DNA from: Cyanobacteria bacterium M_surface_10_m2_179
GTDB taxonomy: Bacteria; Cyanobacteriota; Cyanobacteriia; PCC-6307; Cyanobiaceae
Assembly (NCBI GenBank): GCA_016882545.1
Contig: VGPW01000008.1
Coordinates: 1-38,714 of the forward strand
DNA: 38,714 nt
Direction: 5' to 3'
Part shown: in pieces, positions 1 to 31,499 of the stretch
Position numbering within the stretch: position 1 is the stretch's first letter
Layout of the letters: each line of letters starts with the position of its first letter
Notes under the pieces: generated by a model
Database searches by the model: none
The model's input: only the letters and a program-made list of their open reading frames with translations
What the model was told of the DNA's origin: nothing
Translations under genes and position numbers: made by a program

Positions 1-197
1 CATGGGAGAACGGCTTTGCGGAATCGTTCAACGGAAGATTCCGGGATGAGTTCCTCAACACCGAGCTGTTCACTACAGCTCCCGAGGCTCAACTCCTGGC
101 TGATCGCTGGCGCTGGGAGTACAACACATTCAGGCCACATTCGGCCCTCCAGGGGCGTACGCCCCTGGAGGCAGCTCAACAAGGAGCTGCAGCATGA
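1..197 (+). CDS. IS3-family transposase OrfB, C-terminal fragment
   Basis: The reading frame with codons starting at 3 gives about 64 residues to a TGA at 195-197. It contains NGFAESFNGRFRDEF, whose Glu is the expected last residue of the DDE catalytic triad. It also contains YNTFRPHSALQGRTPLEA, the usual tail of IS3-family integrase-core transposases. The enzyme would cut and join the ends of its own element. The gene enters from outside the window, so completeness is unknown. Another open frame over the same bases (16-219) lacks any transposase pattern and is a shadow. Confidence 0.85.
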   Translation, partial: WENGFAESFNGRFRDEFLNTELFTTAPEAQLLADRWRWEYNTFRPHSALQGRTPLEAAQQGAAA

Positions 198-3149: not shown

Positions 3150-3680
3150 TTATTCAAGATAGACCTTGAGATCGGATAGTACTTTACTGTAAGCATCATT
3201 AAACCTCTTCACTGTAAGAACTGGGTCCTGTCCTTGATTCAGCTTCATAACATTCCCCCAACTAACAAGGCACTGGTTTGCAGCTATTTGTGTAAGACCA
3301 ACGATTGCAATGCTTTCCTTTACGGGCCCATTGAAGGTATGTGTATATGCCAATTCCATATCTTGCGGATCAATATAGATTAACTCTTCATGGACCAACT
3401 GTCCATTTGTGCTTCTTGTTAGCCCCCTAACTTCACCAACCTGACCGGCTACCCCTTTAATTCTCGTAGAAACCTTGAAACCTGAGTACCATTTAGCAAT
3501 TCCGCTAAAATCAGAGATGACACTCCAAACACCAGGGCAAGGTTTATCTATTATAATACTCTTTTTTGCTCTAAAGACCTCTAATACGCTTCTTTGATCT
3601 TCCGCACGACTAGCACTTGTACAAAAACAAGCTTCAAGTGCCGCAACTAGCAATACAGTGATCAATAGCTTGTGTTTCAC
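3150..3680 (-). CDS. Exported SRPBCC (START/polyketide cyclase-like) family protein
   Basis: The protein has 176 residues from a GTG start; no ATG lies close by. A hydrophobic N-terminal signal peptide ends around SRA/ED (residues 25-27), placing it in the periplasm or outside the cell. The rest has the SRPBCC pattern: a strand-rich start (KKSIIIDKPCPGVWSVISDF), then GIAKWYSGF, then GEVRGLTR and a C-terminal helix (VKRFNDAYSKVLSDLKVYL). This fold encloses a hydrophobic pocket and binds lipids or aromatic small molecules. The ligand is unknown. It is transcribed away from the multicopper oxidase gene and toward the porin, sharing their AT-rich composition. Its Cys 18 sits in LEAC, a poor lipobox, so I do not call it a lipoprotein. 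Confidence 0.7.
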   Translation of the reverse strand: MKHKLLITVLLVAALEACFCTSASRAEDQRSVLEVFRAKKSIIIDKPCPGVWSVISDFSGIAKWYSGFKVSTRIKGVAGQVGEVRGLTRSTNGQLVHEELIYIDPQDMELAYTHTFNGPVKESIAIVGLTQIAANQCLVSWGNVMKLNQGQDPVLTVKRFNDAYSKVLSDLKVYLE

Positions 3681-3841: not shown

Positions 3842-6800
3842 ATGTCCGGTAGTTCATTTGTTCCCGAATCCCTGCGTGGTGCTTTTTTCCCGAAGTACTA
3901 CGTTTACGATGGAGGTCCCGATGACGAAGATGGAATTAAGAATGGTATCATTAACTACACCAATTATTTCGGCAATGGTCCGTTTCGGATTGCTGGCCTT
4001 TCATCTTTTGTTGAGAATGTTCTAGGTCTCCGTTTCCCGACAAATGATAATACAAGCAATGAACTGCTCTTTTCATACGAGGATCTCAATAATCAAAATA
4101 AAAGCACCTACTCTCCTGTCTATCTTTATTCATACGGTCATCTCGACTCCACTGGCCTAGTTGATTTCGATAGCCCAGGCTCACACATAGCACTTGACCC
4201 CGGCCAAACACTTAATCTTGTAACTAAGTTCTTTGGTGACGTTAAAAGTATCCACAAGCATCCAGCTACGAGCACTTCGGGCGTTGCCTTTATGGAAAGT
4301 GGTGGAGCAGGTTCAACTAACACTCACTTTCATGGCCTTAATGTATCACCTAAAGGATACGGCGATAATGTTGATATTGAAAATCGTAGTGACTATACAA
4401 ACACAATCAAAGTCCCCAAGTCGCATCATGAAGGTCTGTCTTGGTGGCACCCTCACTTTCATGGATCAGCAAATGGTCAAGTTTATGGAGGTGCATTTGG
4501 CAATCTACAGATTGGTGATGCCCTTTCCTACTTGCCTGACTTCAGCTCGGCCAAGCGCAATTTTATTGGTATAAAGAACTTCAACGTTACATATAACCAG
4601 CAAACAGCGCGCTTCGAGGCGATTACCAGTGGATTTACGCCTGAGGAGACAGCACGCAATATCTACCTCATTAATGGTGAGTATCTGCCATTTAAAACAG
4701 GATTCACTACTGGTGAATGGAATTCCTTCTCCTTTATCAACTACACCAGCAATAGCTTTCTGAATACCAAGATCATCAAGACGCTTGATGGTATACCATT
4801 TGATATCAAGGATAAGTCAACATGGGGAGATTCGGTTGATCTCTATATCTATGGAAAGGATGGCTACCAAACTCCCACTGTGGAGCAAGCGTTTACCGGT
4901 ATCAATAATACCATCCTTAACGGTTTGCAACTAGAAGACCCAGTCGGAGAAACAGTCACTAATCTTCCATCCCCAAGCCTCAGTAACAATCTATACCTTA
5001 GTCCGGCCCGTCGCTATGAAACTCTTGCCTACTTCAAGACTCCTGGCGACTACAAGATTATATCCGAAGCATGGACTGGCGCTGGTCTACGTGCAGGTGG
5101 CTGGATCTGGCCTGATATTGAACTTGGCACACTTTCAGTAGCTGGTCCGACTGTCTCTGCTCCATCAGTCGTTCCTTCTGATATCACTCCTGAGAAGCCC
5201 TATGAGTCTATTAATCTTGATCTTGCCGCATACCAACCTCTTCGGGACCGACGTATTACGTGGTCTGGTGATTCCTTTATCGAGGGTCCGAATCGCTTTC
5301 GGAAAATCAATGGTGGTATTTACAACACGACAAAAATACTTAAGAATGGCGAACCCAATCGATACGCAGGCTACAATCCACCCTTTCTGATTAACGACAA
5401 CGTTCTACCTTATAACCCTGCGCTTATTACCCAGCTTGATTCCTTGGAATATTGGCATCATGAGAATTGGGCGACAGAGCAGCATCCGTTCCATCCACAT
5501 CAAAATCACTTTCAGATTGTTCCCACAACCGACGCACCTCAGCAGCGAACCCCTCTAGCCCCTTTGATCGCTGACAGTTCTGCTAGTCGCGACGTTATTA
5601 AGCTATTTGTTGCTTATCTCGGCAGGATACCTACTCCTGACGAACTCTCACAGTTCTCGCAACAACTTTCGGATTCTTTGACAAGGGAAGATCTCGCCAG
5701 AATCCTCTCCACCTCTGAGCAATATTCCGCAGAGTTTCTTCGCTTCTATGTTACTGAACAAGATCTCACCAAAGACAAATACCAACAGATAGCTGATGGC
5801 GCTTACTATACTATCACTCGAGAAAATATCTATGATGTGGCCAAATCGCAGCGGTATGCGAAGCTTCTGAAAAAGGTTGGTGTAGAGCGATTCCCTCTCA
5901 TTCTACTCGACACATTAACTGCAAGTGAGGCTGGCCAGCGTACTCGCGACCGCCTGAACAATCTGACCACAGCTGCACTCTATGCTGTTAACAAGGTTGC
6001 CCAAACACAGCCCTATACTGTTGTCACAACGGCTTTGCTTCGTGTTCTAAACCAACAGATCACAGATAATCACTTGTCTGTGGATCGTCTTTACTCCCTA
6101 ATTGACCAGCTGGTTCAATACGATCCTGCAAACGTGCTGAATGGTGAATCCTACGCTGGATCACCTGTGCGCATGGATAATGTTGCACTGCCGGCAGGCT
6201 TGATTCAGTATCAATCCTATTCTTCCCCAAGCAGTAATCGTTATCCTACTCCTGCAATCTTTAACCAGTTAGAGCCAGGTCGTATTACGACGGCTACGAC
6301 CTTTGATAACTATACCGGTGGATTTCTTCAGCACTGTCATATCCTTCCACATGAAGACTCTGGCCAAGGCATGATCGTTAAGATCATCGACAATATGCAG
6401 CGCAGTTGGTTTGCAAAGCAGAAAACCTTCGATATCGGCGACTCGATTCAAATCTATCGTTCCTCTAGTCTGGAGCCTAAGCTGATTTCTTCTGATACGT
6501 CTGTTCAGCGTCGCATTGCTTTTGGTGATCTCGATAAAGATGGCTACAGTGACATTACCATTGTCAATGGTGATTCTGGATCTGATGTCGTCACTGTTGT
6601 CGACGGGAGAACGCTTCAGGTTAAGTTTCGGTTTAATGCATTTTCAGACTATGAAGCTGGTCAGTTAATTCCTAGTGCAGACATTAATGCCTCGTGGGAC
6701 CATGGCCTATATGTTGATGTTAATGATGTAACCGGAGACGGTCTAAGTGACATTGTTATTGGTGCTGGTTCGGGTGGTGGCAATCGTCTTCGCGTCTTTA

Positions 6801-8167
6801 CGCGAGTTCCCGGTGGCTTCCAGTTTGCCGGTGAGACCTATGCATTTACTAGTTCCCCCGGCTTGTCCAACCTTTCTGAAACACGTTTCAGAATTGGTGA
6901 TTTTGATGCCGATAACTTTTCTGATATCGCCTTTATTGGTAATCAAGAGGATGGCAGCCCTGTTGAAGTTCGATCCACGCGTTCCGGTAACGTACTTTCT
7001 CTGTTTAAACCGGGTCTTGAAGGACGTATCGGCTTAACAAGCGGTTATTCGAGTTTCCACAATCTAGGCCTTGAAACCCTGTATCTCTATCAGATCGATC
7101 ACCCTGATGGCTTGGTTAAAGCTGCAACTATGCGTGCCGCTAAGTATGTTGCGCATTCACGCCTTGCAGACAATCCATATTACGACGCTGCTAAGTATTA
7201 TGGATACGCCGATGCCGACGAGCAGACTCTTCTCACGCGGCCTGTTGGCAGGATCAGGGCTGATCTTGGATTTGACTGGTTAATTGCAGATCAGTTCACA
7301 CTGGCCGATAACCTACCTGGTCTGGATCCAGTGACAGGTGCTTCTTATTCATTAGACGCTAGCTTCATTGGTTACTTGGCTAATCCTGTCCTGATCGCCT
7401 CGAATGGCATTGACTCTGATATTACTAATTACACATCACAATCAACGCGGGCAAGCCTTCCCTACTTTGCTGCCAGCCCTACCTATCGCTCCGTTGCTGG
7501 TGACATTATTGGTCTCTTCGTGTCTACTCTCGGTCGGTTGCCTTCCCCATCGGAGTTGCATCGTCTTACCAATCGCGTTCTTATTGACAGCCAGCCTTTA
7601 TCCTACGTCCAGCAAGTTGTCGACTACACCGGTCCCTACGACCCCTCTGACCCTGTCAGTATTGATGCCCTTTCCGATCAGTACTACGACCACACAACTG
7701 GTGACTTTCGATACGCCTATCAAGGCGTTTCAGATCTGAATGTTCGATCCAGCTTCAGGCTCGTTTCTGATGATCGCTCATCGTCGATCGTTTCTTATTC
7801 CCCTGAGGTCCTCGCTAACATCAAGTCTTATGGCTTGTATCTTGACGCACAGCTTGTTAATAATATGAACATTGACGGGGATCTCTTCATGTATTTGGGT
7901 GAATCTCCTCGCCTGCGTCGCCTGCTGTTTGACTCCTTTCGTTCGATTGACTCCTCGTCTCAGTCGCTTATCCAAGCCACTGACGCCCTTGGTCTAACTC
8001 TATCTGGAAACTATTCCTATCCTCTTGGTGAGAGTTCGCCTCTTGCGAATGGTCTCAATGTGGATGGTTCTAGTTATATCTCCTCCTCTACGCAACTTCA
8101 TCCATCACTCTTGGGGGCTCCTCCCTTTCCCATTGCTGACGCTTCTGTTGTGCATCATCACCTCTAG
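3842..8167 (+). CDS. Giant multicopper oxidase fused to DUF4214-like and FG-GAP repeat segments
   Basis: The protein has 1441 residues. All four copper-binding motifs are present: THFHG (161-165), WWHPHFHG (201-208), HPFHPHQNH (548-556) and HCHILPH (831-837). A normal multicopper oxidase has roughly 55-60 residues between the last two; here there are about 275. The insert includes a DUF4214-like segment (about 581-655, VIKLFVAYLGRIPTPDEL). FG-GAP-like Asp-rich repeats follow (DLDKDG 896-901, DVTGDG 962-967, DFDADN 1020-1025), then a second DUF4214-like stretch (1220-1247). No Sec signal peptide is visible, so export by another route such as type I secretion is an inference. An extracellular metal or phenol oxidase is likely; Mn(II) oxidation is possible but unproven. 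ATG 3842 is the first possible start after a stop at 3821. Confidence 0.88.
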   Translation: MSGSSFVPESLRGAFFPKYYVYDGGPDDEDGIKNGIINYTNYFGNGPFRIAGLSSFVENVLGLRFPTNDNTSNELLFSYEDLNNQNKSTYSPVYLYSYGHLDSTGLVDFDSPGSHIALDPGQTLNLVTKFFGDVKSIHKHPATSTSGVAFMESGGAGSTNTHFHGLNVSPKGYGDNVDIENRSDYTNTIKVPKSHHEGLSWWHPHFHGSANGQVYGGAFGNLQIGDALSYLPDFSSAKRNFIGIKNFNVTYNQQTARFEAITSGFTPEETARNIYLINGEYLPFKTGFTTGEWNSFSFINYTSNSFLNTKIIKTLDGIPFDIKDKSTWGDSVDLYIYGKDGYQTPTVEQAFTGINNTILNGLQLEDPVGETVTNLPSPSLSNNLYLSPARRYETLAYFKTPGDYKIISEAWTGAGLRAGGWIWPDIELGTLSVAGPTVSAPSVVPSDITPEKPYESINLDLAAYQPLRDRRITWSGDSFIEGPNRFRKINGGIYNTTKILKNGEPNRYAGYNPPFLINDNVLPYNPALITQLDSLEYWHHENWATEQHPFHPHQNHFQIVPTTDAPQQRTPLAPLIADSSASRDVIKLFVAYLGRIPTPDELSQFSQQLSDSLTREDLARILSTSEQYSAEFLRFYVTEQDLTKDKYQQIADGAYYTITRENIYDVAKSQRYAKLLKKVGVERFPLILLDTLTASEAGQRTRDRLNNLTTAALYAVNKVAQTQPYTVVTTALLRVLNQQITDNHLSVDRLYSLIDQLVQYDPANVLNGESYAGSPVRMDNVALPAGLIQYQSYSSPSSNRYPTPAIFNQLEPGRITTATTFDNYTGGFLQHCHILPHEDSGQGMIVKIIDNMQRSWFAKQKTFDIGDSIQIYRSSSLEPKLISSDTSVQRRIAFGDLDKDGYSDITIVNGDSGSDVVTVVDGRTLQVKFRFNAFSDYEAGQLIPSADINASWDHGLYVDVNDVTGDGLSDIVIGAGSGGGNRLRVFTRVPGGFQFAGETYAFTSSPGLSNLSETRFRIGDFDADNFSDIAFIGNQEDGSPVEVRSTRSGNVLSLFKPGLEGRIGLTSGYSSFHNLGLETLYLYQIDHPDGLVKAATMRAAKYVAHSRLADNPYYDAAKYYGYADADEQTLLTRPVGRIRADLGFDWLIADQFTLADNLPGLDPVTGASYSLDASFIGYLANPVLIASNGIDSDITNYTSQSTRASLPYFAASPTYRSVAGDIIGLFVSTLGRLPSPSELHRLTNRVLIDSQPLSYVQQVVDYTGPYDPSDPVSIDALSDQYYDHTTGDFRYAYQGVSDLNVRSSFRLVSDDRSSSIVSYSPEVLANIKSYGLYLDAQLVNNMNIDGDLFMYLGESPRLRRLLFDSFRSIDSSSQSLIQATDALGLTLSGNYSYPLGESSPLANGLNVDGSSYISSSTQLHPSLLGAPPFPIADASVVHHHL

Positions 8168-11441: not shown

Positions 11442-12890
11442 CTAGCGGGGTGACGGCGGTGTTTGGGCTGTGAGCACCGCCTCGCCCCGGCGATGCAGTT
11501 CGCGGGCGTAGTCGGTCCAGGTGCCCTGACCCCAGTAGCGAAAGCAGCTGGTTTCCAGCAGCAGCAGATGCAGCAACGCCTCCTGGTAAGGAGCCGTTTG
11601 CGTGGTGGCAGGGTCGTGGTGCATCTGTGAATCAAAGGTTTGGTGAAAGGCAGCGCTGAGCTGCTGCATCGGCCCCAGCACGTTCTCGTAGCCCTGCACC
11701 CAGCTGAGGTTGTTGGTCCAGGAGGCCCCTTCCATGCTGAACGTGGGATCCAGCGCCTGGCAGCGGGCGATGGCCGCATCCACAGCTGCGGGGCCCTGCG
11801 CATCACCCAGCTGTTGCCAGAGCTGTTGCTGGCGCACCGCCTGAATGGCGGGGTAGTCGCTTTCAGCGATCTGCAGCAACTGCAGATACTCACTGCCGTT
11901 CAGAGCTGCGGTGCTCGGCTGATCGCGCAGCTTCTGGTGTGCCTGGATGAAGGCTGCCGGGAACTCATTCATCATCACGCCGCCGTTTTCGCCATCGGCG
12001 ATCTGGCTCACCAGCGGCGGCACCTGGCGCTCTCCCAGGGGCAGCGGGCCCAGGCCCAGGGCCTCGTAGCAGGGCTGCATCTGACCCACCAATTTCGTGT
12101 CTGAGCCTTGGGTTTTGATCAGCGCGGTGATGCTCACGCTCTCGCCGTTGCTGTTGCGAGCGATCAAACGGTTGGGCAACACCTTTTGCGCGCTGCTCAG
12201 CCGGGAACCATCGAGGTTTTCCACGCTGTGCTCCTGCACCAGCAGCCATTGGTAGCCGCAATCCCGAAGCGCCTTCACCAGGGCGAACAGGGTGTCGGGA
12301 TGGTTGGGCAGATGCATCTCAGGCGGCGAAAACCCCCGCACGCGGCTGAGGGCTTCGCTGCCGAACAGGGCGGCGAACTGGTGCTGCCAGGCCTGGATGT
12401 GCAGCTTCAGATCAGGGATCGGTGTGGAGGGCGCCACGGCGTGGCCCCAGAAGCTGCCGAGCCACTCCACGTGCTGCTGCATCAGCGGGTCGCAGGCCAG
12501 GTAGCGCAGCGCATCGAGGATGTCGCGGCGGCCCATCTGCTCAAAGCCCCAGAGCAGGGTGCCGGAGTAATCGAGCATGATCCGCGGCGCGCAGCCCTGC
12601 TGGATCAGCTCCGGCAGCAGGTCGGCCAGGCGCCGGTAGCACTGGGCGAAGGGTTCGGCGTTGTGGTTATCGCCCTCACCCGGGTGCTCGAACATGTAGC
12701 GGAGATGGGAGATCAGCTCCCCATCGGCGCCCGCCGGGATCGTTGGCTGATGCATGTGCAGCGCACAGGCAAAGGCCGAGCGCAGGCTTTGGAAGCGCTC
12801 GGGACAGATGCTGCTCTGCAGGGGCTGGTGCTGCTGCATCAACCGCTCCAGTTCAGCTTCGCGGCCGGCGATCGGGGGCGTGACGCTCAT
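11442..12890 (-). CDS. Glycoside hydrolase family 57 protein
   Basis: The protein has 482 residues. The family hallmark HMHQP is at 45-49. A Pro-Glu motif, GFSPPEM (186-192), places E191 where GH57 enzymes keep their nucleophile. DGEN (299-302) matches the conserved late motif. GH57 enzymes act on alpha-glucans as amylases, branching enzymes or pullulanases, retaining the anomeric form. Which of these applies here cannot be read from sequence. No signal peptide is present, so it is cytoplasmic and may act on glycogen. The start is the ATG at 12890. It stands alone, 38 bases downstream of the cytochrome b gene end. Confidence 0.85.
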   Translation of the reverse strand: MSVTPPIAGREAELERLMQQHQPLQSSICPERFQSLRSAFACALHMHQPTIPAGADGELISHLRYMFEHPGEGDNHNAEPFAQCYRRLADLLPELIQQGCAPRIMLDYSGTLLWGFEQMGRRDILDALRYLACDPLMQQHVEWLGSFWGHAVAPSTPIPDLKLHIQAWQHQFAALFGSEALSRVRGFSPPEMHLPNHPDTLFALVKALRDCGYQWLLVQEHSVENLDGSRLSSAQKVLPNRLIARNSNGESVSITALIKTQGSDTKLVGQMQPCYEALGLGPLPLGERQVPPLVSQIADGENGGVMMNEFPAAFIQAHQKLRDQPSTAALNGSEYLQLLQIAESDYPAIQAVRQQQLWQQLGDAQGPAAVDAAIARCQALDPTFSMEGASWTNNLSWVQGYENVLGPMQQLSAAFHQTFDSQMHHDPATTQTAPYQEALLHLLLLETSCFRYWGQGTWTDYARELHRRGEAVLTAQTPPSPR

Positions 12891-12928: not shown

Positions 12929-13462
12929 TCAGCGCTTCTGAAACGGGCGGGTCAGCTGATCCAGCCACAGGCGGGGATGGTCGTTGGCTCGCAGGGTTGG
13001 GCTGAACATCGACCCCGCCAGGCTGCGGCCACCACGCCGAAGCACCGCCTCCACATGCCAGAGCAGGGCCGCAGCGATCAGCAGCCAGGCCAGCAGGTGC
13101 AGGTGATACACCACGTGGTCGAGCCGGCCCTCGCGCAGCCAGTCCTCCTGCATCAGCTTGCCGCTGCCCACCGCCAGCCCCAGGCCGATCAGGGCGGTGG
13201 CGTTCGCGGGCTGGCGGAGTTTGTGGCGGCCGAGGCTGAAGGCCACCAGGGCGAACAGCAGCGCCAGCGGCCAGAGCAGCACGCCGATGCTGCCGTGGAT
13301 CTCGATCCAGTCGCCGGGGAGCTGAACGGGCAGGGGCAGCCAGCGGCCGTCGAGATTGGAATACACAACCGCGCCGCTCAGCCAGGCCAGCGGCACCAGC
13401 ACCACCATGGCGCCGTGCAGCAGGCGCAGGAGCGAGGGTTGATAAGGAGAGGTTGGTGCCAT
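12929..13462 (-). CDS. Four-helix b-type cytochrome (b561-like) membrane protein
   Basis: The protein has 177 residues from the ATG at 13462. Four hydrophobic helices lie at about 12-34, 54-76, 88-102 and 117-137. Histidines at the right depths to bind heme are H16 (LLHGAMV), H56 (EIHGSIG), H120 or H122 (VVYHLHLLAW) and H136 (LLWHVEAV). This is the layout of small membrane cytochromes b that pass electrons across the membrane. The gene begins 8 bases after the UPF0016 exporter gene, so the two are probably co-transcribed. The electron donor and acceptor are unknown. Confidence 0.75.
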   Translation of the reverse strand: MAPTSPYQPSLLRLLHGAMVVLVPLAWLSGAVVYSNLDGRWLPLPVQLPGDWIEIHGSIGVLLWPLALLFALVAFSLGRHKLRQPANATALIGLGLAVGSGKLMQEDWLREGRLDHVVYHLHLLAWLLIAAALLWHVEAVLRRGGRSLAGSMFSPTLRANDHPRLWLDQLTRPFQKR

Positions 13463-13470
13463 CGGCTGGA

Positions 13471-14124
13471 TTAGGTGAGGGCCTGGTGCAGGGAGAACAG
13501 CCCGAAGGCGATGAACAGCCCGCCGCTCAGTTGATAGAGCAGCCGTTCGCTGATGCGGCCTCCGATCCACTGCCCCGCACCCACCGCCAGCCAGGTGACG
13601 AGGGCGTGGCCCGCCAGGGTGCCCGCCAACAGCCCGGCAAAGGAGAAGGCCGGTGCTGTGGCCAAAAAGATGGTGGTGAACTGGGTGCGATCGCCCAGCT
13701 CGGCGATGAACACCAGCGCAAAGGCTTCCCAGATCACAGCCCAGGTGGTGGTGATGCGGGAGCGGCTTTCGGCCTCGTCGATCACCTGCTCCGCCTCTTG
13801 TTCCTCCGCTTCGGCCTCGTCGGCCCCCATGCCCTGGGCATCGATCAGCAGCTTCACGCCGAAGCCGGCAAACAGCAGCGCCGCCAGCCAGGGCACCACG
13901 CTGGCCGGCAACAGCTCCCGCAGCCCGTAGCCCAGCCCCAGGGAGATCAGGGTGACGGCGGCGAGGGCCGCAAAGGCACCGATGAACACATCTCTGGCCC
14001 GGTGCCGCGTGGCCAGGATCAGAGCCATGAAGAAGGTTTTGTCCCCCAGCTCCGCCAGGGTGATGGCCGTGAGGCTGGCCCCGAAGGCGGCCACACCGGG
14101 ATCTGAGGAAAGCGCTGCGCTCAT
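13471..14124 (-). CDS. mnx: UPF0016/GDT1 family manganese exporter
   Basis: The protein has 217 residues from ATG 14124. Two family signatures, ELGDKT (25-30) and ELGDRT (142-147), each lie in a membrane helix. They are the cation-binding motifs of UPF0016 proteins. Six helices surround an acidic cytoplasmic loop (about 98-122, many Glu). Characterised cyanobacterial relatives (Mnx of Synechocystis) export Mn2+ from the cytoplasm to lumen or periplasm. In-frame ATGs at 14142 and 14160 give longer forms; the one at 14160 overlaps the kinase stop as ATGA, which would suit translational coupling. It sits in an operon with a two-component system and a CDF transporter. Confidence 0.87.
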   Translation of the reverse strand: MSAALSSDPGVAAFGASLTAITLAELGDKTFFMALILATRHRARDVFIGAFAALAAVTLISLGLGYGLRELLPASVVPWLAALLFAGFGVKLLIDAQGMGADEAEAEEQEAEQVIDEAESRSRITTTWAVIWEAFALVFIAELGDRTQFTTIFLATAPAFSFAGLLAGTLAGHALVTWLAVGAGQWIGGRISERLLYQLSGGLFIAFGLFSLHQALT

Positions 14125-14156
14125 CCACCAAACCTGCCTCATCACCCGTGCAGAAG

Positions 14157-15458
14157 TCATGAGATTGGGGGTGGTTGGGGCCAGAGCACCTGCAGGGTGC
14201 AACGCCCCGGCTCACCGCTGAGCAGGGAGAGCTCGCCGCCATGGCTGCGGGCGATGCTGCGGGCGATCGCCAGCCCCAGGCCGCTGTGGCCGCCCTGATC
14301 GCTGCTGCGCCAGAAGCGCTCGAACACCTGCTCCTGCGCGTCGCTGGGGATGCCGGGTCCCTGATCGATCACCAACACCGTGATCTGCCGAGCGGAGGTG
14401 GACACCTCGATGGCCACCTGGCCGCCGCTGGGGCTGTAGCGGATGGCATTGAGCAACAGGTTGGTGAACAGCCGTAGCAGCTGCTCGCTGCGGGCTTCGA
14501 TCGCAACGCTGTGGCTGGCGGGATCGGGGCTGAGGCTCAGGCGAATCGATCGTTGCCTCGCCTGGGCGCTGTAGCAGCGGATCAGATCGTCGAGCAGTTC
14601 GAGCAGATCGAAGCGCACCAGGGCCCGCTGGGCCGCGGCGGGATCGCTGAGCTCCTGCCGTTGCCGCGCCAGCAGCAGCAGATCATCCACCAGCTCCCCC
14701 AGCTGGATGGTGAGCTGGTTGAGTTCACGCCAGGCCAGTTGGGGTTAACGGCGCAGCGGCTCCGGCACGGCCGCCAGCAGGGCCCGCAGGGCCGAGAGGG
14801 GATGGCGCAGCTCATGGGAGGCATCAGCCGTGAAACGCTCCAGGGCGCGCACCTGTTGCTGCAGCGGCCAGAAGGCGGCATTGAGCATCTGGCGGCCCAC
14901 CAGCAGCGCCGCCAGCACGGTGACGATCCCGCCCAGGAGCAGTCCGCTGCGCAGCCGCTGCAGATCTGCCTGGGCCGCCTGATCGGAGACGGCCACCCGC
15001 ACCGACCCCAGCTGCTGGGGCGGCGCTCCCGCAGGGCTGCGCACCAGCACCGGTTGCCACAGGCTGATGCCTCCGGGCCACTGCTGCCAGGGGGTTCGGG
15101 CCCTGTTGATCGGCGGCAGCTGCAGCGACCCCTGCTGCAACAGCAGCGAGCCATCGCGGCTGAACCACTGGATGCGCTGCTCCGCCAGCGCCGGCGTTGT
15201 GATCAGTTGGGCGTTGGGCTGAAATTTGCGCGCACCTGCGGCCTCGCTGGTTTCGTGGGCGATCAGGGGCAGCTGGCTGGCGGCCGCTGCCATCAACTGG
15301 CGCAGTTCGGTGCGCAGGTCGTTCTGGCGCTGCAGCGCCACCTTCCAATACAGCGACCCGGCAAAAGCGCTCAGCAGCAGCAGGGCGAAGCCACCCCCCT
15401 GCAGGGCCAGTCGCCGTTTCAGCCGCAGCGGATCAGGGGGCAGCGAGCCGGTAGCCAA
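14157..15458 (-). pseudogene. Sensor histidine kinase broken by one in-frame stop
   Basis: The frame starts at a TTG (15458), overlapping the response regulator by 26 bases. It encodes one membrane helix (about 21-40), a periplasmic domain, a second helix (172-188) and a HisKA box ASHELRHP with H215. It then meets TAA at 14745-14747 (codon 238). The same frame resumes at once with PQLAWRELNQL and runs through the ATPase: N box FTNLLLNAIRYSP, G1 DQGPGIP, F box FERFW, G2 GLGLAIA, stop at 14157. No base is gained or lost, so one substitution (for example CAA to TAA) explains it. Reinitiation at the GTG at 14690 could still make an ATPase-only fragment. Loss of function, suppression and sequencing error are all open. 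Confidence 0.85.
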
Positions 15459-19088: not shown

Positions 19089-20378
19089 ATGCGTGCTGAT
19101 CCTCAAGCCCCTGAGGGGCGTGCGCTGCCCAGCACCGGTGCGGTGAGCGGTGTGCTGGAGGCGCTGGCCTTCTTCCGCGATCCCCAGTTCGCCGGAGACC
19201 GGTTTCAGCGCTACGGCGATGTGTTCGAAACCAAGCTGGTGGGCCAGTCGTTGGTGTTCATCCGCGGTGAGCGGGCCATCGACGACCTGCTCAGCCAGAG
19301 CGAGGCCACCGAAGGCTGGTGGCCTGAGAGTGTGCGCCAGCTGCTCGGTCGGCGTTCCCTGGCCAACCGCAACGGCGCCGATCACCGTGCCCGCCGGCGG
19401 GTGGTGGGCCAGCTGTTTTCAGCGGCGGCGCTGCGGCGCTACAGCCCGCAGATCAGCCAGCTGGTGGATCAGTTGGCGAGCGACCTACGCCTCAGCACCG
19501 AGCCGGTGGCCCTGGTGGATCGGATGCGGCGGTTTGCCTTCGCCGTGATCGCGTCGGTGGTGCTGGGGCTGGAGGGCCACGACATCGAAGCCCTCTTCGC
19601 TGACTTTGAGATCTGGACCCGGGCCCTGTTTTCTGTGCCGATCGCCCTTCCCGGCACCCCGTTCGCCAAGGCTTTGCAGGCCCGCGCTCGTCTGCTGGAG
19701 CGGCTGCGGGGTGTGTTGGAGTGCGCCCGGGATCGTCCCACCGGTGGGCTGGATCTGTTGAGCGGTGGCCTCGATGAAGCGGGCTTGCCGCTCACCGACG
19801 ACGACCTGGTGGAGCAGTTGCTGCTGCTGCTCTTTGCTGGCTACGAAACCACCGCCTCCTCGCTGAGCTGTCTGATGGCGGCCTTGCTGCAGCATCCGCC
19901 GGTGCTGGCCTGGTTGCAGGAAGAGATCCAGGCTCTCCCCTGGCCGTCTGGGGAGGCGGTGTCCACACCGCGGCTGGATGCGGTGGTGCAGGAGGTGATG
20001 CGGCTGAATCCACCGGTGGGTGGTTTTTTCCGGCGCACCATCCGGCCGCTGCTGCTCGATGGGGTGCTGGTGCCGGCAGGGCGGGTGGTGCAGGTTGCCT
20101 TGGCGTCCTCCAACCGCACGAGTCGCAATGGCGCTGCCGATCTGGAGGCGTTCCGCCCGGCTCGCCATCTCGAACCCAACAACGGCCTCACCCTGTTGCC
20201 GTTTGGCGGTGGTGAGCGGGTGTGCCTGGGCAAAGCCCTGGCGGAGCTGGAGATTCGTTTGATGGCGGTGGGCTTGCTGCAGCAGGTGCAGCTCGAGCTG
20301 GTAGCCGATCAAGACCTCAGCCTGGCGCTGATTCCCAGCCCCAGCCCGCGCGATGGACTGCTGGTGACGGCCCGTTGA
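19089..20378 (+). CDS. Cytochrome P450 (CYP120-like)
   Basis: The protein has 429 residues. All core motifs are present: the I-helix oxygen-activation motif AGYETT (250-255), ExxR as E302-R305 (EVMR), and the heme loop FGGGERVCLG with the cysteine ligand C379. The overall pattern resembles CYP120, whose Synechocystis member hydroxylates retinoids; the substrate here is unknown. It is soluble, with no N-terminal membrane anchor. The enzyme needs ferredoxin or a similar electron donor, none of which is encoded nearby. ATG 19089 fits the expected N-terminus. Confidence 0.93.
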   Translation: MRADPQAPEGRALPSTGAVSGVLEALAFFRDPQFAGDRFQRYGDVFETKLVGQSLVFIRGERAIDDLLSQSEATEGWWPESVRQLLGRRSLANRNGADHRARRRVVGQLFSAAALRRYSPQISQLVDQLASDLRLSTEPVALVDRMRRFAFAVIASVVLGLEGHDIEALFADFEIWTRALFSVPIALPGTPFAKALQARARLLERLRGVLECARDRPTGGLDLLSGGLDEAGLPLTDDDLVEQLLLLLFAGYETTASSLSCLMAALLQHPPVLAWLQEEIQALPWPSGEAVSTPRLDAVVQEVMRLNPPVGGFFRRTIRPLLLDGVLVPAGRVVQVALASSNRTSRNGAADLEAFRPARHLEPNNGLTLLPFGGGERVCLGKALAELEIRLMAVGLLQQVQLELVADQDLSLALIPSPSPRDGLLVTAR

Positions 20379-26337: not shown

Positions 26338-28806
26338 TCACTGCTCCGCCCGTGTGGCCTCGGCGATCAGCCGCTGCACGCGGTCCACGAGCGACTCGTT
26401 GCTGAGACGGTTGTTCAGGCGTTCCACCAACAACGGAAAGGCCAGAGGCCCAGGCCTCGGGATCCGCTCCACCCGCCAGGTGCTTGCGGCCATGCGCTCC
26501 AGGGCCGAGCGCAGACGGTGCTGTTCCAGTTGTTCATCGAGCACCTCACGGCGGGCCTGCTCCAGCAGCAGGCTGCCGGGTTCGTGTTTCTGGAACACGT
26601 CGAACAGCAGAGCTGCACTGATCTGCAGCTGGCCGCCGGTTTTGTTCTGGCCGGGCATCGCCTGACTGATCAGGCCGCTCACCTGGGCGATGGCGCGAAA
26701 ACGGCGTCGGCAGAGCTCGGAGAAGTTGAGGGCCTGTTCCAGATCGCTCTCGAGCTGCTCCAGATCGAGCAGAGCATCGCCATGAAGATCCAATAGCTCC
26801 TCAAAGGGGTAGGTCTTGGGTGCCAACAGCTCGAAGCCGTAGTCGTTCACCGATACGGTGATCGTGCTGGCGCGGTGACGGGCGAGCCGCCAAGCCCAGA
26901 GGAAGCCGATGCCCTCATGCACGAAGCGCCCCTCAAACGGATACACGAACAGGTGGCTGCCCTCGCGGCTGCGGCAGAGCTCCACCAGTAGTTGATCGCT
27001 GCGGGGCAGGCCGGACAGGTTGGCCTGCCGTTCCAGCAGTGGCTCGAGGGCCTGCAGTTCGGGTGTGTCGAGCCTGGCTTCACCAGCCAGGGCCCGCGCG
27101 CAGATGTCCACCTCGTCGCGCAGGTGGCGGCTGAGCAGATCCGAGAGCGCCATCTGGCCGCCGGCCCAGGCCGGCACCGTGGAGCTCTTGCGGGTGGTGG
27201 CCTTCACCTGGGCGGTCATCTCCCGCAACCGCACAAATTCGAGCTGCCGTCCGGCGAAGAAGAACACATCGCCGGGTTTGAGCCGGCCGATGAAGGCCTC
27301 TTCCACATGACCGAGCACCGCGCCGCGCACAAAGCGCACCGTCACCGAGCGATCGGCGGTGATCGTGCCGATGTTGAAGCGATGCAACCGGGCGATCGTT
27401 TTGTCGACCACTCGGTAGACATCGCCCTCGCGCACCAGTTTGTGGTAGCGGGGATAGGCGCCCAGGCAGGTGCCGCCATGCTCGAGAAAGGTGAGGCACC
27501 ACTGCCACTGCGCCTCGCTTAGCGCGCGGAAACTCCAGCAGCTGCGCACCGCGTTGAGTTCCTGTTCCGGCTGCAGACCCGGGCCGCAGGCGAGGCTGGT
27601 GAGGTGTTGCAGCAGCACATCCAGGGGGAGCTGCGGCGGCCGGCGGTGTTCCACCAGGCCGTTCTCCAGCCCCCGCCGCATGGCACTTACCTCCAGCAGC
27701 TCCAGGGCGTTGGTGGGCATGAACAACACCTGCGACGTGCCGCCCGGGGAGTGGGCACTGCGACCAGCCCGTTGCAGCAGCCGCGCCAGGTTTTTGGCAC
27801 TGCCCACCTGCACCACCCGCTCCACGGGTTGGAAGTCGACCCCCAGATCCAAGGAGCTGGTGCACACCACCCAGCGCAGCTCGCCGGCCTTCACGCGCGC
27901 CTCGATCGCTTCCCGTTCGGCCCGGTCGATGGCGCTGTGGTGGAGGGCCAGGGCGTCCTCCATTTCCGGGCAGGCAAAACGCAGGCATTGGTGCCAGCGC
28001 TCGGCCTGGTTGCGGGTGTTGGTGAACAGCAGTGTGCTCACCGCGGGATCGAGGCCCGCCACCAACTCCTCATACATGCGCAGCCCCAGATGGCCGCCCC
28101 AGGGGAACCCGTCGATGCTCTCGGGCAGCAGGCTGCGAATCGCCGTGGCCCGCTGAATGTCGGAGGTGATGATCCGGGGTGGTGCTGTTGTGAGCCCGAG
28201 CGCTGCCTGCGCGGCCTCCTCGAGGTTGCCGATCGTGGCGCTGATCGCCCAGGTGCGCAGCTGGGGGCGTATCCGCCGCAGCCAGCTCAGGCAGAGCTCG
28301 GTTTGCGTGCCCCGCTTGCTGCCCATCAGCTCGTGCCATTCATCGAGCACCACCGCCTGCAGCTGGGCGAACAGCTCCGGTGCCTTGGCGTTGGCCAGCA
28401 GCACGCTCAGTGATTCGGGCGTGGTGATCAGGATCTCGGGCGGGGTGCGCAGCTGTTTGCTGCGCTCGTAGGTGGCGGTGTCGCCATTGCGGATGGCCAC
28501 CCGCAGCGGCCAGCCCATGGAGCTGATCGGCTGCTCGATCGCCAGGGCCAGGTCGCGGCTGAGGGCCCGCAGCGGTGTGATCACCAACAGCCGCAGGCCG
28601 CGGATTTTCGGATCGCTCGGTGGCGTCGCCAGCATCTCCGCGATCGGACCCATCACAGCGGCGTAGGTTTTGCCAGAGCCGGTGGGCACTTGCAGCAGGC
28701 CGCTCTCGCCCGCCAGGTAGGCCTGCCAGCACTGGCGTTGGAAGGCCATTGGGCTCCAGCCCTGCTGGCTGAACCAGGCCTCGATCGGCGCCAGTGCAGG
28801 GCTCAT
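26338..28806 (-). CDS. Ligase-associated Lhr-like DEXH-box helicase
   Basis: The protein has 822 residues. The helicase core shows Walker A PTGSGKT (41-47), DEWH (155-158, a DExH box with Trp), SATIGN (motif III), and motif VI QRAGRSAHSPGG in the second RecA domain. The long C-terminal region matches Lhr-type helicases. It overlaps the ligase gene by 4 bases and completes the ligase-associated repair operon. It would unwind or remodel DNA at damage sites using ATP. Confidence 0.92.
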   Translation of the reverse strand: MSPALAPIEAWFSQQGWSPMAFQRQCWQAYLAGESGLLQVPTGSGKTYAAVMGPIAEMLATPPSDPKIRGLRLLVITPLRALSRDLALAIEQPISSMGWPLRVAIRNGDTATYERSKQLRTPPEILITTPESLSVLLANAKAPELFAQLQAVVLDEWHELMGSKRGTQTELCLSWLRRIRPQLRTWAISATIGNLEEAAQAALGLTTAPPRIITSDIQRATAIRSLLPESIDGFPWGGHLGLRMYEELVAGLDPAVSTLLFTNTRNQAERWHQCLRFACPEMEDALALHHSAIDRAEREAIEARVKAGELRWVVCTSSLDLGVDFQPVERVVQVGSAKNLARLLQRAGRSAHSPGGTSQVLFMPTNALELLEVSAMRRGLENGLVEHRRPPQLPLDVLLQHLTSLACGPGLQPEQELNAVRSCWSFRALSEAQWQWCLTFLEHGGTCLGAYPRYHKLVREGDVYRVVDKTIARLHRFNIGTITADRSVTVRFVRGAVLGHVEEAFIGRLKPGDVFFFAGRQLEFVRLREMTAQVKATTRKSSTVPAWAGGQMALSDLLSRHLRDEVDICARALAGEARLDTPELQALEPLLERQANLSGLPRSDQLLVELCRSREGSHLFVYPFEGRFVHEGIGFLWAWRLARHRASTITVSVNDYGFELLAPKTYPFEELLDLHGDALLDLEQLESDLEQALNFSELCRRRFRAIAQVSGLISQAMPGQNKTGGQLQISAALLFDVFQKHEPGSLLLEQARREVLDEQLEQHRLRSALERMAASTWRVERIPRPGPLAFPLLVERLNNRLSNESLVDRVQRLIAEATRAEQ

Positions 28807-30458
28807 GCCAGCTGCTCCATCAGCGCCCGGGCGCTGGCGAGGCTGTCAGCTTCGCTGGCCGGTTTGTCGGTCCGCCAACGGCTGATGCGCGGGAAGCGCA
28901 CCGCGAAGCCGCATTTGTGGCGTTTCGAGGGTTGGATGCCTTCAAAGGCCAGCTCGAACACCTGCAGCGGCTCCACAGCACGCACCGGCCCGAAGCGCTC
29001 GGTGGTGTGGGCGCGGATCCAGCGATCCAGCTGGCGGATTTCGCCATCGTCGAGGCCCGAGTAGGCCTTGGCGAAGGTCACCAACGCGCCCTCGCCGTTC
29101 CAGAGGCCAAAGCTGTAGTCGGTGTAGAGGTTGGCGCGCTTACCGCTACCGGCCTGGGCGTAGAGCAGCACCGCATCCAGCCGCAGCGGCTCGAGCTTGT
29201 GTTTCCACCAGTGGCCGCGCTTGCGCCCCACCAGATAGGGCGAGTCGAGGGCTTTGAGCATCAAGCCTTCCGCCCGCTGTGGCCGGGCCTGATCGCGGCG
29301 TTCATTCAGCTCGCTCCAGCGTTGGAGGCTCTGGGTGGCGGAGAGGCGCAGTCGCCCCGAGCTTGCGGTGTCGGCTTGCTGCAGCCAGTGCTGATGCAGC
29401 TGCTCCAACAGGGCACGCCGCTGCTGCAGCGGTTGCTGGCGCAGATCTGTTCCCTGATGCTCAAGCAGGTCGTAGGCCACAAAGGCAGCCGGACAGTCGC
29501 GCTGCAGGCTGCGGCTGGGAGCCTTGCGCCCCAGCCGTCGCTGCAGGCTGGCGAAGGATTCCGGTGCTTCGGCATCGCCATGCCAAACGATTACCTCCCC
29601 ATCCAGCGCCGTTCCCTGGGGCAACAGCTCTGCCAGGGCGATCAGCTCGGGAAAGGCCTCATTGATCAGTTCCTCGCCGCGGCTCCAGAGGCTGCAGCCA
29701 CCGGCTCTGTGGATCAGCTGACCGCGGATGCCATCCCACTTCCACTCCAGCTGCCAACTCTCGGGAGACGTGTGCTCCAGCTGGCCCAGCTCCAGGGGAC
29801 TGGCCAGAAAAAAGGGATAGGGCTTGGCGGATAAATCTTCGCCATGGCCCGCTGCTGCCGTGAGGGCGGCAAAGGCTTCGGCGCTCGGCGTGAATCCACC
29901 CATCAATCGGTGTGCCACCAGGGCCTCCTCCAGGCCGGCGCTGCGGGCGACGGCGCGGGTCACCAGCCCGGTGGACACCCCCACCCGAAAGCCACCGCTG
30001 AGCAGCTTGTTCACCAGCAGCAACTGATCGGCGGGGAGGCATCGCCAACAGGCCTGCACCGCCTCGGCTTGCTCGTTGCCCTGCAGGGCCGCCAGGGCCG
30101 GCAGCCGCTGCTCCATCCACTGGGCCAGAGATTGCTCAAGGCCGGTGCCGGCCTGGTTCGGTGTCGCGGAGCGATCGGGGCGTTGCTGCCATACCAGGGC
30201 CACCGTTTCGGCTGAGTCGCCCACCTGGGCGTGGCAGGCCTCGAACAACCACTCCGGTAGCCCGGTGACTGCCAGGCAGATCTCCCGCAGCCGCCGGCCG
30301 GTGATCAGGCGCTTGCGCCGTTTGCCCATCAGCAGGGCCAGGGCCCAGGCGGCATCAGCGGCTGGAACGCTCTGGAAATAAGCATTGAGCGCCTCGAGCT
30401 TGGCGCTGGTGCTGCTGGTGCCGTCCAGCTGTTGAAACAGCGATGCGAAGGCGTGCAT
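28803..30458 (-). CDS. ATP-dependent DNA ligase of the ligase-associated repair operon
   Basis: The protein has 551 residues. The adenylation motif I is KWDGIR with the lysine at 240. Upstream is an all-helical N-terminal DNA-binding domain (about 1-210), with LDGEVIVW (motif III) and later EGLMLKALD (motif IV) and WWKHK (motif V). It seals nicks using ATP, unlike the NAD-dependent LigA that all bacteria keep. Its stop overlaps the helicase start, and it begins 3 bases after the exonuclease stop. Together the three form the known ligase-associated DNA damage set. Confidence 0.93.
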   Translation of the reverse strand: MHAFASLFQQLDGTSSTSAKLEALNAYFQSVPAADAAWALALLMGKRRKRLITGRRLREICLAVTGLPEWLFEACHAQVGDSAETVALVWQQRPDRSATPNQAGTGLEQSLAQWMEQRLPALAALQGNEQAEAVQACWRCLPADQLLLVNKLLSGGFRVGVSTGLVTRAVARSAGLEEALVAHRLMGGFTPSAEAFAALTAAAGHGEDLSAKPYPFFLASPLELGQLEHTSPESWQLEWKWDGIRGQLIHRAGGCSLWSRGEELINEAFPELIALAELLPQGTALDGEVIVWHGDAEAPESFASLQRRLGRKAPSRSLQRDCPAAFVAYDLLEHQGTDLRQQPLQQRRALLEQLHQHWLQQADTASSGRLRLSATQSLQRWSELNERRDQARPQRAEGLMLKALDSPYLVGRKRGHWWKHKLEPLRLDAVLLYAQAGSGKRANLYTDYSFGLWNGEGALVTFAKAYSGLDDGEIRQLDRWIRAHTTERFGPVRAVEPLQVFELAFEGIQPSKRHKCGFAVRFPRISRWRTDKPASEADSLASARALMEQLA

Positions 30459-30461
30459 GGC

Positions 30462-31499
30462 TCAGCTTGCCGGCGCGGTGGCTTGTTCGTCGTCGAAGCG
30501 TTCGGCTTCGAAGTGCCCCTCCAGCGGCTCGGCGTTGATCCCCTCCACCTCCCGCAGATACCGCGCCAGCACGTTGCTCTGGCCGTGGGTCACATACACC
30601 TGCTGAGCCCGGCTCTCGCGCACGCTCTGCAGCAGTCCGCTCCAATCGGCGTGGTCGCTCATCACGAAACCGCGCCCATAGCCACGGCGGTGGCGGGCAC
30701 CGCGCACGGCCATCCAGCCGCTCACGAAGCCGTTCTGGGCCTTGGTGAAGCGCCCCAGGCCGCGGCTGCGATGGGCTGCCGGTGGTGCGATCAGGAGGCG
30801 TCCGCTCAGATCGGCGCCGCGCTCCAGCTCCGCCAGCGGCCGCGTTGGCGGCATCGCTACGCCCGCCTGGCGGTAGGGCGCCATCAGCCGCTCCACGGCG
30901 CCGTGCAGCAGCACTTCGTCGCTCACACCGAGGCGATGCAACTCCGCTAGCACCCGCTGCGCCTTGCCGAAGGCGTAGGCGAACAGCACCGAGGGGCGAT
31001 CCGGCGCGCTGCGCCACCACGCCAGGATCTCCGCGGCGATCTCGGCGCCGCTCTGCCAGCGGTAGATCGGTAGCCCGAAGGTGGCCTCACTGATCAGCAC
31101 ATCTGCCTGCACCGGCTCGAAGGGCTCGCAGCTGGGATCGGCGCAGCGTTTGTAGTCGCCGCTCACCAGCCAGCTTTCGCCGCCGGCCTCCAGCCGGATC
31201 TGGGCGCTGCCGAGCACATGACCCGCCGCATGGAACGACACCCGCGCCGCGCCGATGCGGTGCAGCTGGCCGTAGTCCACCGGCAGCAGCGTGATCTCGG
31301 CGCCGAGCCGTTCCCGCAGGATCCCCTCGCTGGCGCCGATCGCCCAGTATTCGCCGCAGCCTGGCCGGGCGTGATCGGCATGGGCGTGGGTGATCAACGC
31401 CCGCGGCACCGGCCGCCAGGGATCGATCCAGGCCTGCGCCGCCGGGCAGTAGAGCCCTTCGGGGCTGAGCTGCAGCAGTCCGCCTGGGGCGAGGGGCAT
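30462..31499 (-). CDS. Ligase-associated DNA damage response exonuclease (metallo-beta-lactamase fold)
   Basis: The protein has 345 residues. The metal-binding signature HAHADH is at 38-43, followed by FHAAGHVLGSA (third His), SGDYKR (Asp) and MSDHADW (last His). The beta-CASP-like region in the middle (FGKAQRVLAELHRLG) and the Cys-free core resemble the SNM1/Pso2 type of nuclease. It trims DNA ends for the ligase downstream, which starts 3 bases after its stop. It is divergent from the MNT gene, 38 bases away. Confidence 0.92.
   Translation of the reverse strand: MPLAPGGLLQLSPEGLYCPAAQAWIDPWRPVPRALITHAHADHARPGCGEYWAIGASEGILRERLGAEITLLPVDYGQLHRIGAARVSFHAAGHVLGSAQIRLEAGGESWLVSGDYKRCADPSCEPFEPVQADVLISEATFGLPIYRWQSGAEIAAEILAWWRSAPDRPSVLFAYAFGKAQRVLAELHRLGVSDEVLLHGAVERLMAPYRQAGVAMPPTRPLAELERGADLSGRLLIAPPAAHRSRGLGRFTKAQNGFVSGWMAVRGARHRRGYGRGFVMSDHADWSGLLQSVRESRAQQVYVTHGQSNVLARYLREVEGINAEPLEGHFEAERFDDEQATAPAS

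Follow-up and report, generated by a model that had tools for sequence, protein, structure and literature searches.

The closest described relatives of the gene considered here are the bacterial three-domain laccases and related multicopper oxidases (MCOs), exemplified by the Thermus laccase 2xu9, CueO and CotA. In the current study, we describe a giant MCO encoded at positions 3842-8167 of contig VGPW01000008.1 from Cyanobacteria bacterium M_surface_10_m2_179, a stretch of 38,714 nucleotides hereafter called the window, which constitutes the entire contig C8 of a 1.92-Mb genome that is 86% complete and divided among 127 contigs. This protein carries the four copper motifs and the domain order of the enzymes just named, and its third domain aligns with theirs once an insert is left out. 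Unlike them, it holds this insert of ~230 residues between motifs 3 and 4, has Gln in place of Met at the presumed axial copper position, extends into large C-terminal modules, and lacks a Sec or Tat signal. We regard it as a known kind of enzyme in variant form, residing in a gene cluster that is apparently undescribed. A literature search, which covered few subscription papers, found nothing on either the architecture of the oxidase or the cluster.

The coding region is one unbroken frame of 1441 amino acids. The Pfam Cu-oxidase_2 profile matches the protein with 37.7 bits against a cut-off of 20.4, a match to Cu-oxidase_3 falls below its Pfam cut-off, and a phmmer match to the Thermus laccase (1.9e-13) has the motif regions in order. 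In a profile-profile comparison with 11 canonical MCOs (hhalign, probability 99.6, E 8e-25), domains 1 to 3 align as far as motif 3, where the alignment stops. Judging from these alignments, the open reading frame (ORF) is a three-domain MCO with its domains in canonical order. Its parts are as follows.

3842..8167, plus strand: giant three-domain MCO of 1441 amino acids, recognized by its ORF, Pfam and PDB matches and full-length orthologs.
4325..4336, plus strand: copper motif 1, HFHG (H162, H164), both His invariant in nine orthologs and aligned to canonical MCOs.
4448..4462, plus strand: copper motif 2, HPHFH (H203, H205), invariant and aligned to canonical MCOs.
5483..5509, plus strand: copper motif 3, HPFHPHQNH (residues 548-556; H548, H551, H553), invariant and aligned to canonical MCOs.
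5528..6238, plus strand: insert, residues ~563-799, with a predicted helical module at ~575-760 that is weakly DUF4214-like at its start (excision test, AlphaFold, hhalign and weak fold matches).
6332..6367, plus strand: copper motif 4, HCHILPHEDSGQ (residues 831-842; H831, C832, H833, H837; Q842 at the presumed axial type-1 position), ligands invariant.
6521..6931, plus strand: FG-GAP repeats, integrin-type and beta-propeller-like, residues 894-1030 (PF01839, 27.4 bits; PF13517, 26.5 bits).
7094..8086, plus strand: conserved C-terminal region of unknown fold, residues 1085-1415, with a very weak second DUF4214-like stretch (39-74% identity among orthologs).

An earlier examination of the letters alone, here called the sequence-only reading, had proposed a very large oxidase with an extra module in its catalytic domain and a motif 3 to motif 4 gap of about 275 residues, against 55-60 in ordinary enzymes. 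Both points are borne out. Measured from first His to first His, the two motifs lie 283 residues apart here and 283-292 residues apart in the orthologs. Short cyanobacterial MCOs in which motif 3 was detected have a distance of 52, and the longer MCOs of picocyanobacteria one of 74-105. When residues 563-799 are removed, the alignment with ordinary MCOs runs through motif 4, and the domain 3 score rises from 51 (E 7e-6) to 85 (E 7e-12). Two AlphaFold runs both place a helical domain at ~575-760, mostly with predicted local distance difference test (pLDDT) values of 85-97. A separately folding insert domain within a conserved MCO domain 3 is thus a well-supported prediction, and in the structural claim of this analysis as a whole we place high confidence.

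Other giant picocyanobacterial MCOs (1122-1773 amino acids; loci L030, L031 and L044-L056) resemble the window protein in that FG-GAP repeats follow the oxidase region in the two that were tested, and the same family includes related proteins that combine an MCO with FG-GAP repeats but lack the large insert. They differ in having a spacing of 88-105 residues between motifs 3 and 4 and an axial Met. A second and more widespread group of giant picocyanobacterial MCOs (~1460-1770 amino acids; L030 and L044-L056, from genomes G022, G301, G287 and others) shows a spacing of 93-105 residues with an axial Met, and its one tested member carries FG-GAP repeats.

The family to which the insert belongs is less clear. 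The DUF4214 assignment made by the sequence-only reading is weak. A profile-profile comparison with 31 cyanobacterial DUF4214 domains yields E 3.5e-4 at a probability of 37%, in register over ~52 residues around 'AYLGRxPxPxEL' (the part 'YLGRxPxPxEL' being in register with DUF4214). Pfam thresholds are not reached: nothing in the genome matches PF13946 at E 0.001, and the profile goes unreported for the oxidase even at E 10. We consider DUF4214 identity plausible but weak, the sequence match being only suggestive. A second such stretch, noted earlier at 1220-1247 and placed here at ~1216-1247, proved very weak (hhalign E 0.04, probability 1%).

By fold, the best match of the second insert model is the N-terminal lipopolysaccharide (LPS)-binding domain of the Caulobacter surface-layer (S-layer) protein RsaA (PDB 6t72; Z 6.6, 148 residues, root-mean-square deviation 4.6 A, 16% identity), and phycobilisome linker domains (PF00427) give weak matches at Z ~5-7, all of these values being below 8 and in a range that may reflect chance for helical proteins. 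A DUF4214 profile searched against PDB found only insignificant phycobilisome linker matches, and no sequence link between DUF4214 and RsaA was shown. RsaA resembles the oxidase in being a secreted surface protein as well; it differs in that no sequence family is shown to be shared and in that it is not an enzyme. The RsaA domain binds LPS at its O-antigen, with Ca2+ (PMC6978808). Because this weak fold match is to an LPS-binding domain, a role for the insert as a surface anchor is a reasonable hypothesis by analogy.

All 11 His and Cys ligands (H162, H164, H203, H205, H548, H551, H553, H831, C832, H833 and H837) are invariant in nine orthologs. The sequence-only reading missed a further conserved residue, Q842, which falls on the axial Met of other MCOs once the insert is excised from the alignment, and which is therefore the presumed axial type-1 residue. 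It is kept in all orthologs that can be read there, one having an unresolved residue. The Met, Leu or Phe expected at this variable, non-disqualifying position is not present, and the other MCOs examined have Met or, rarely, Leu. An axial Gln usually lowers the potential of type-1 copper. To our knowledge, and from the MCOs compared here, a natural axial Gln is unusual in this enzyme class, and a literature search found no Gln-ligated MCO.

A scan of GTDB genome contigs, which relied on exact peptide patterns taken from a single protein and could therefore miss distant relatives elsewhere, recovered nine ortholog loci, all picocyanobacterial, both freshwater and marine, at 47-80% identity. They comprise a Vulcanococcus metagenome-assembled genome (MAG; 80%), a Synechococcaceae MAG (60%), six marine-type Synechococcus (~47%) and one fragment, and the eight full-length proteins align end to end. 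Between lineages, the core retains 56-58% identity and the insert or C-terminus 37-41%. Synonymous change is saturated or nearly so in most comparisons, replacement changes are few in all four parts (core, insert, propeller and C-terminus), and the sole unsaturated pair gives replacement-to-synonymous ratios (dN/dS) of 0.04-0.12; by this codon comparison, every segment is under purifying constraint. The pattern is not due to chance, because layout and ligands are kept at 47-80% identity and all segments are constrained. Orthologs occur in 10 of 400 genomes of the family, spread over three genera. No ortholog turned up in a further 241 genomes of the class, which included members of the same family, and searches of plasmids and viral contigs gave only short MCO-domain matches and one distant MCO, respectively.

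The main context that the sequence-only reading missed is a conserved gene cluster, part of which lies at the start of the window.

3..197, plus strand: 3' end of a presumed IS3-type transposase interrupting the cluster (translation of both contig ends).
372..3002, minus strand: outer-membrane porin of 876 amino acids, related to cyanobacterial iron uptake porins (NF033921, 80.4 bits, below the cut-off of 100) and conserved in the cluster.
3150..3680, minus strand: SRPBCC/Polyketide_cyc2 protein with a signal-like hydrophobic segment at its N-terminus (Pfam 47.1 bits), adjoining the MCO or SMP-30 gene in all complete loci.

The SRPBCC protein and the porin stand next to the oxidase in every locus that is long enough, an SMP-30 gene is near it in loci of sufficient length, and a GMC flavoenzyme gene is near it in most. 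The freshwater order is SMP30-GMC-porin-SRPBCC-MCO and the marine order is GMC-DUF2808-porin-SRPBCC-SMP30-MCO; because the orders differ, linkage has been kept through rearrangement. Among the same 400 genomes, SMP-30 (>500 bits) is present in exactly the 10 that have the oxidase. Nine of those 10 also carry the flavoenzyme, which in one case is a fragment at the end of a contig. In genomes G311 and G336, it lies on a contig other than that of the oxidase and well away from contig ends. Fisher tests of these associations, which ignore shared ancestry, give p 4e-20 for SMP-30 and 2e-17 for the flavoenzyme. Simple descent is unlikely to explain the co-occurrence fully, because three genera are involved and presence is patchy.

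In the source genome itself, the flavoenzyme and SMP-30 genes lie at the end of contig C41, apart from the window. Beside them, the end of that contig (G000:C41; L062 1-50) encodes the 5' end of a transposase whose 3' end opens the window, and which we take to be of IS3 type. As the facing contig ends read as the two parts of one transposase gene, the break in the assembly is most likely due to an insertion sequence (IS) that entered between the flavoenzyme gene and the porin gene.

The partner proteins offer hints of function. The flavoenzyme matches class I cholesterol oxidase (1coy/1b4v) from end to end (7e-76), begins with a twin-arginine motif, and keeps the aligned His447 and Asn485, the catalytic residues of cholesterol oxidase. 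The SMP-30 protein matches exported gluconolactonases, and the N-termini of the partners, inspected by eye, look export-type. Because the partners combine a cholesterol-oxidase-like flavoenzyme, a gluconolactonase-like protein and such N-termini, they point to an oxidation pathway in the envelope or outside the cell.

The route by which the oxidase itself would reach this location can be proposed from its termini. The sequence-only reading had seen no Sec signal, and this holds: neither a Sec nor a Tat signal is visible in the polar N-terminus, the orthologs share the start position, and only six codons separate the preceding in-frame stop from the ATG. The FG-GAP repeats that it placed at 894-1030 are likewise confirmed (PF01839, over the Pfam cut-off of 22.1 bits). 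The marine orthologs terminate in RTX repeats and stretches rich in His (HemolysinCabind 37.4 bits in one), and such ends are typical of type I secretion substrates. Export by type I secretion is most likely, as far as can be read from sequence. The earlier proposal of a secreted surface oxidase is plausible in view of the marine RTX repeats, the FG-GAP repeats and the weak RsaA-like fold match, although both export and location are predictions.

On this basis, we favour a surface-anchored laccase-type oxidase that acts in an envelope pathway oxidizing a hydroxylated organic compound, and we assign this functional explanation a probability of roughly one-half. The three-domain oxidase would leave the cell with no Sec signal, type I secretion being the most likely route, and would stay attached to the outer surface, with the helical module of ~190-230 residues sitting in a domain 3 surface loop between motifs 3 and 4. 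The C-terminal FG-GAP repeats and further modules, including RTX in marine forms, may help calcium-dependent folding and attachment. The oxidase would work with four exported cluster proteins, namely a Tat-exported flavoenzyme of cholesterol-oxidase type, an SMP-30/gluconolactonase-like hydrolase, an SRPBCC protein that binds hydrophobic ligands and an outer-membrane porin. Together, the five would act at the cell surface to oxidize a hydroxylated compound that is probably phenolic or lipid-like, and a product would be hydrolysed and then taken up or detoxified. In fungi, laccases act together with GMC oxidoreductases to oxidize phenolics and lignocellulose, which we offer as an analogy only. 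A more ambitious and distinctly tentative version envisages a novel type of extracellular oxidation machine in picocyanobacteria, in which a tethered Gln-ligated laccase with a built-in anchor acts with the flavoenzyme, the lactonase-like hydrolase, the ligand-binding protein and a dedicated porin on phenolic or sterol-like dissolved organic matter.

Several observations weigh against the favoured explanation. The flavoenzyme has no Glu at or beside the position aligned with Glu361, the isomerization base of cholesterol oxidase. The structure prediction suggested by the sequence-only reading resolved the insert as a separate helical domain but left the copper core unfolded (pLDDT mostly <50 in the runs on residues 1-860 and 440-860), a probable consequence of an alignment of just eight sequences; ligand conservation is what suggests that motifs 1-4 would meet in one trinuclear site. 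C-terminal RTX (GGxGxDxLx) repeats are absent from the window oxidase and the other freshwater forms. In addition, no HlyD, the type I adaptor, exceeds the cut-off in the 86%-complete source genome, in a search too unspecific to find a dedicated exporter, and one does so in the 99%-complete genome bearing the 80%-identical ortholog.

Among other explanations, the same enzyme system may operate with the insert serving not as an anchor but as a lid, or as a site at which the flavoenzyme or some other partner docks. The insert lies in the domain that carries type-1 copper, near the place where substrates dock in known MCOs, and the RsaA match below Z 8 may reflect a common helical arrangement. 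However, its sequence is among the least conserved parts of the oxidase in the ortholog comparison, which is less expected of an active-site gate, and we judge this arrangement unlikely. Much the same low probability applies to a surface metallo-oxidase for Mn(II), Fe(II) or Cu(I), with the porin and flavoenzyme supporting metal handling. Ordinary bacterial MCOs include metal oxidases, and the adjoining porin is related to iron uptake porins, but the constant partners are a flavoenzyme of organic-alcohol type, a lactonase-like protein and an SRPBCC protein of hydrophobic-ligand type, rather than metal genes, and the lowered potential expected of an axial Gln disfavours Mn(II) oxidation. The sequence-only reading had suggested a cell-surface metal or phenol oxidase; nothing specific for Mn(II) oxidation was found.

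The copper site might instead be a structural remnant in what is chiefly an S-layer or adhesion protein, as the repeat-rich layout and the weakly RsaA-like insert could imply. The invariance of all the His and Cys ligands and the slower evolution of the core, relative to the insert or C-terminus, speak against a remnant, and render this idea quite improbable. Lastly, the contig comes from a fragmented genome, and the sequence-only reading had allowed for the fusion of a separate oxidase gene by assembly error. The same layout, whole or in part, is encoded on nine independent contigs that stem from several projects, and the joining of two genes during metagenome assembly is ruled out for all practical purposes.

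If the more ambitious version, an extracellular oxidation machine, is true, phototrophs would be able to process phenolic or sterol-like components of dissolved organic matter. Picocyanobacteria rank among the most abundant phototrophs, and it is an open question if, and by what means, they process dissolved organic matter extracellularly. For this question, a patchy yet conserved five-gene envelope module around an unusual laccase provides a concrete genetic target. For enzymology, an axial Gln that is apparently natural and a domain inserted between the last two copper motifs would lend themselves to tests of how redox potential and anchoring are tuned.

Some further genes merit mention. Downstream of the MCO in one marine locus (L024 11368-13696, minus strand), adjoining ORFs share 'RxxPLLYGRVPKVANSSIKA', and a gene seems to have been duplicated beside the oxidase. 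Within the window, a 482-amino-acid protein with no Pfam match (11442-12890) adjoins a protein with a weak cytochrome b561-like region (12929-14242, minus strand), and a cytochrome P450 (143.6 bits) is encoded at 19089-20378 (plus strand) of this picocyanobacterial genome. An Lhr-type helicase, an ATP-dependent DNA ligase and a weakly metallo-beta-lactamase-like protein lie in a row at 26338-31499 (minus strand), an arrangement that resembles a known ligase-associated DNA repair cassette.

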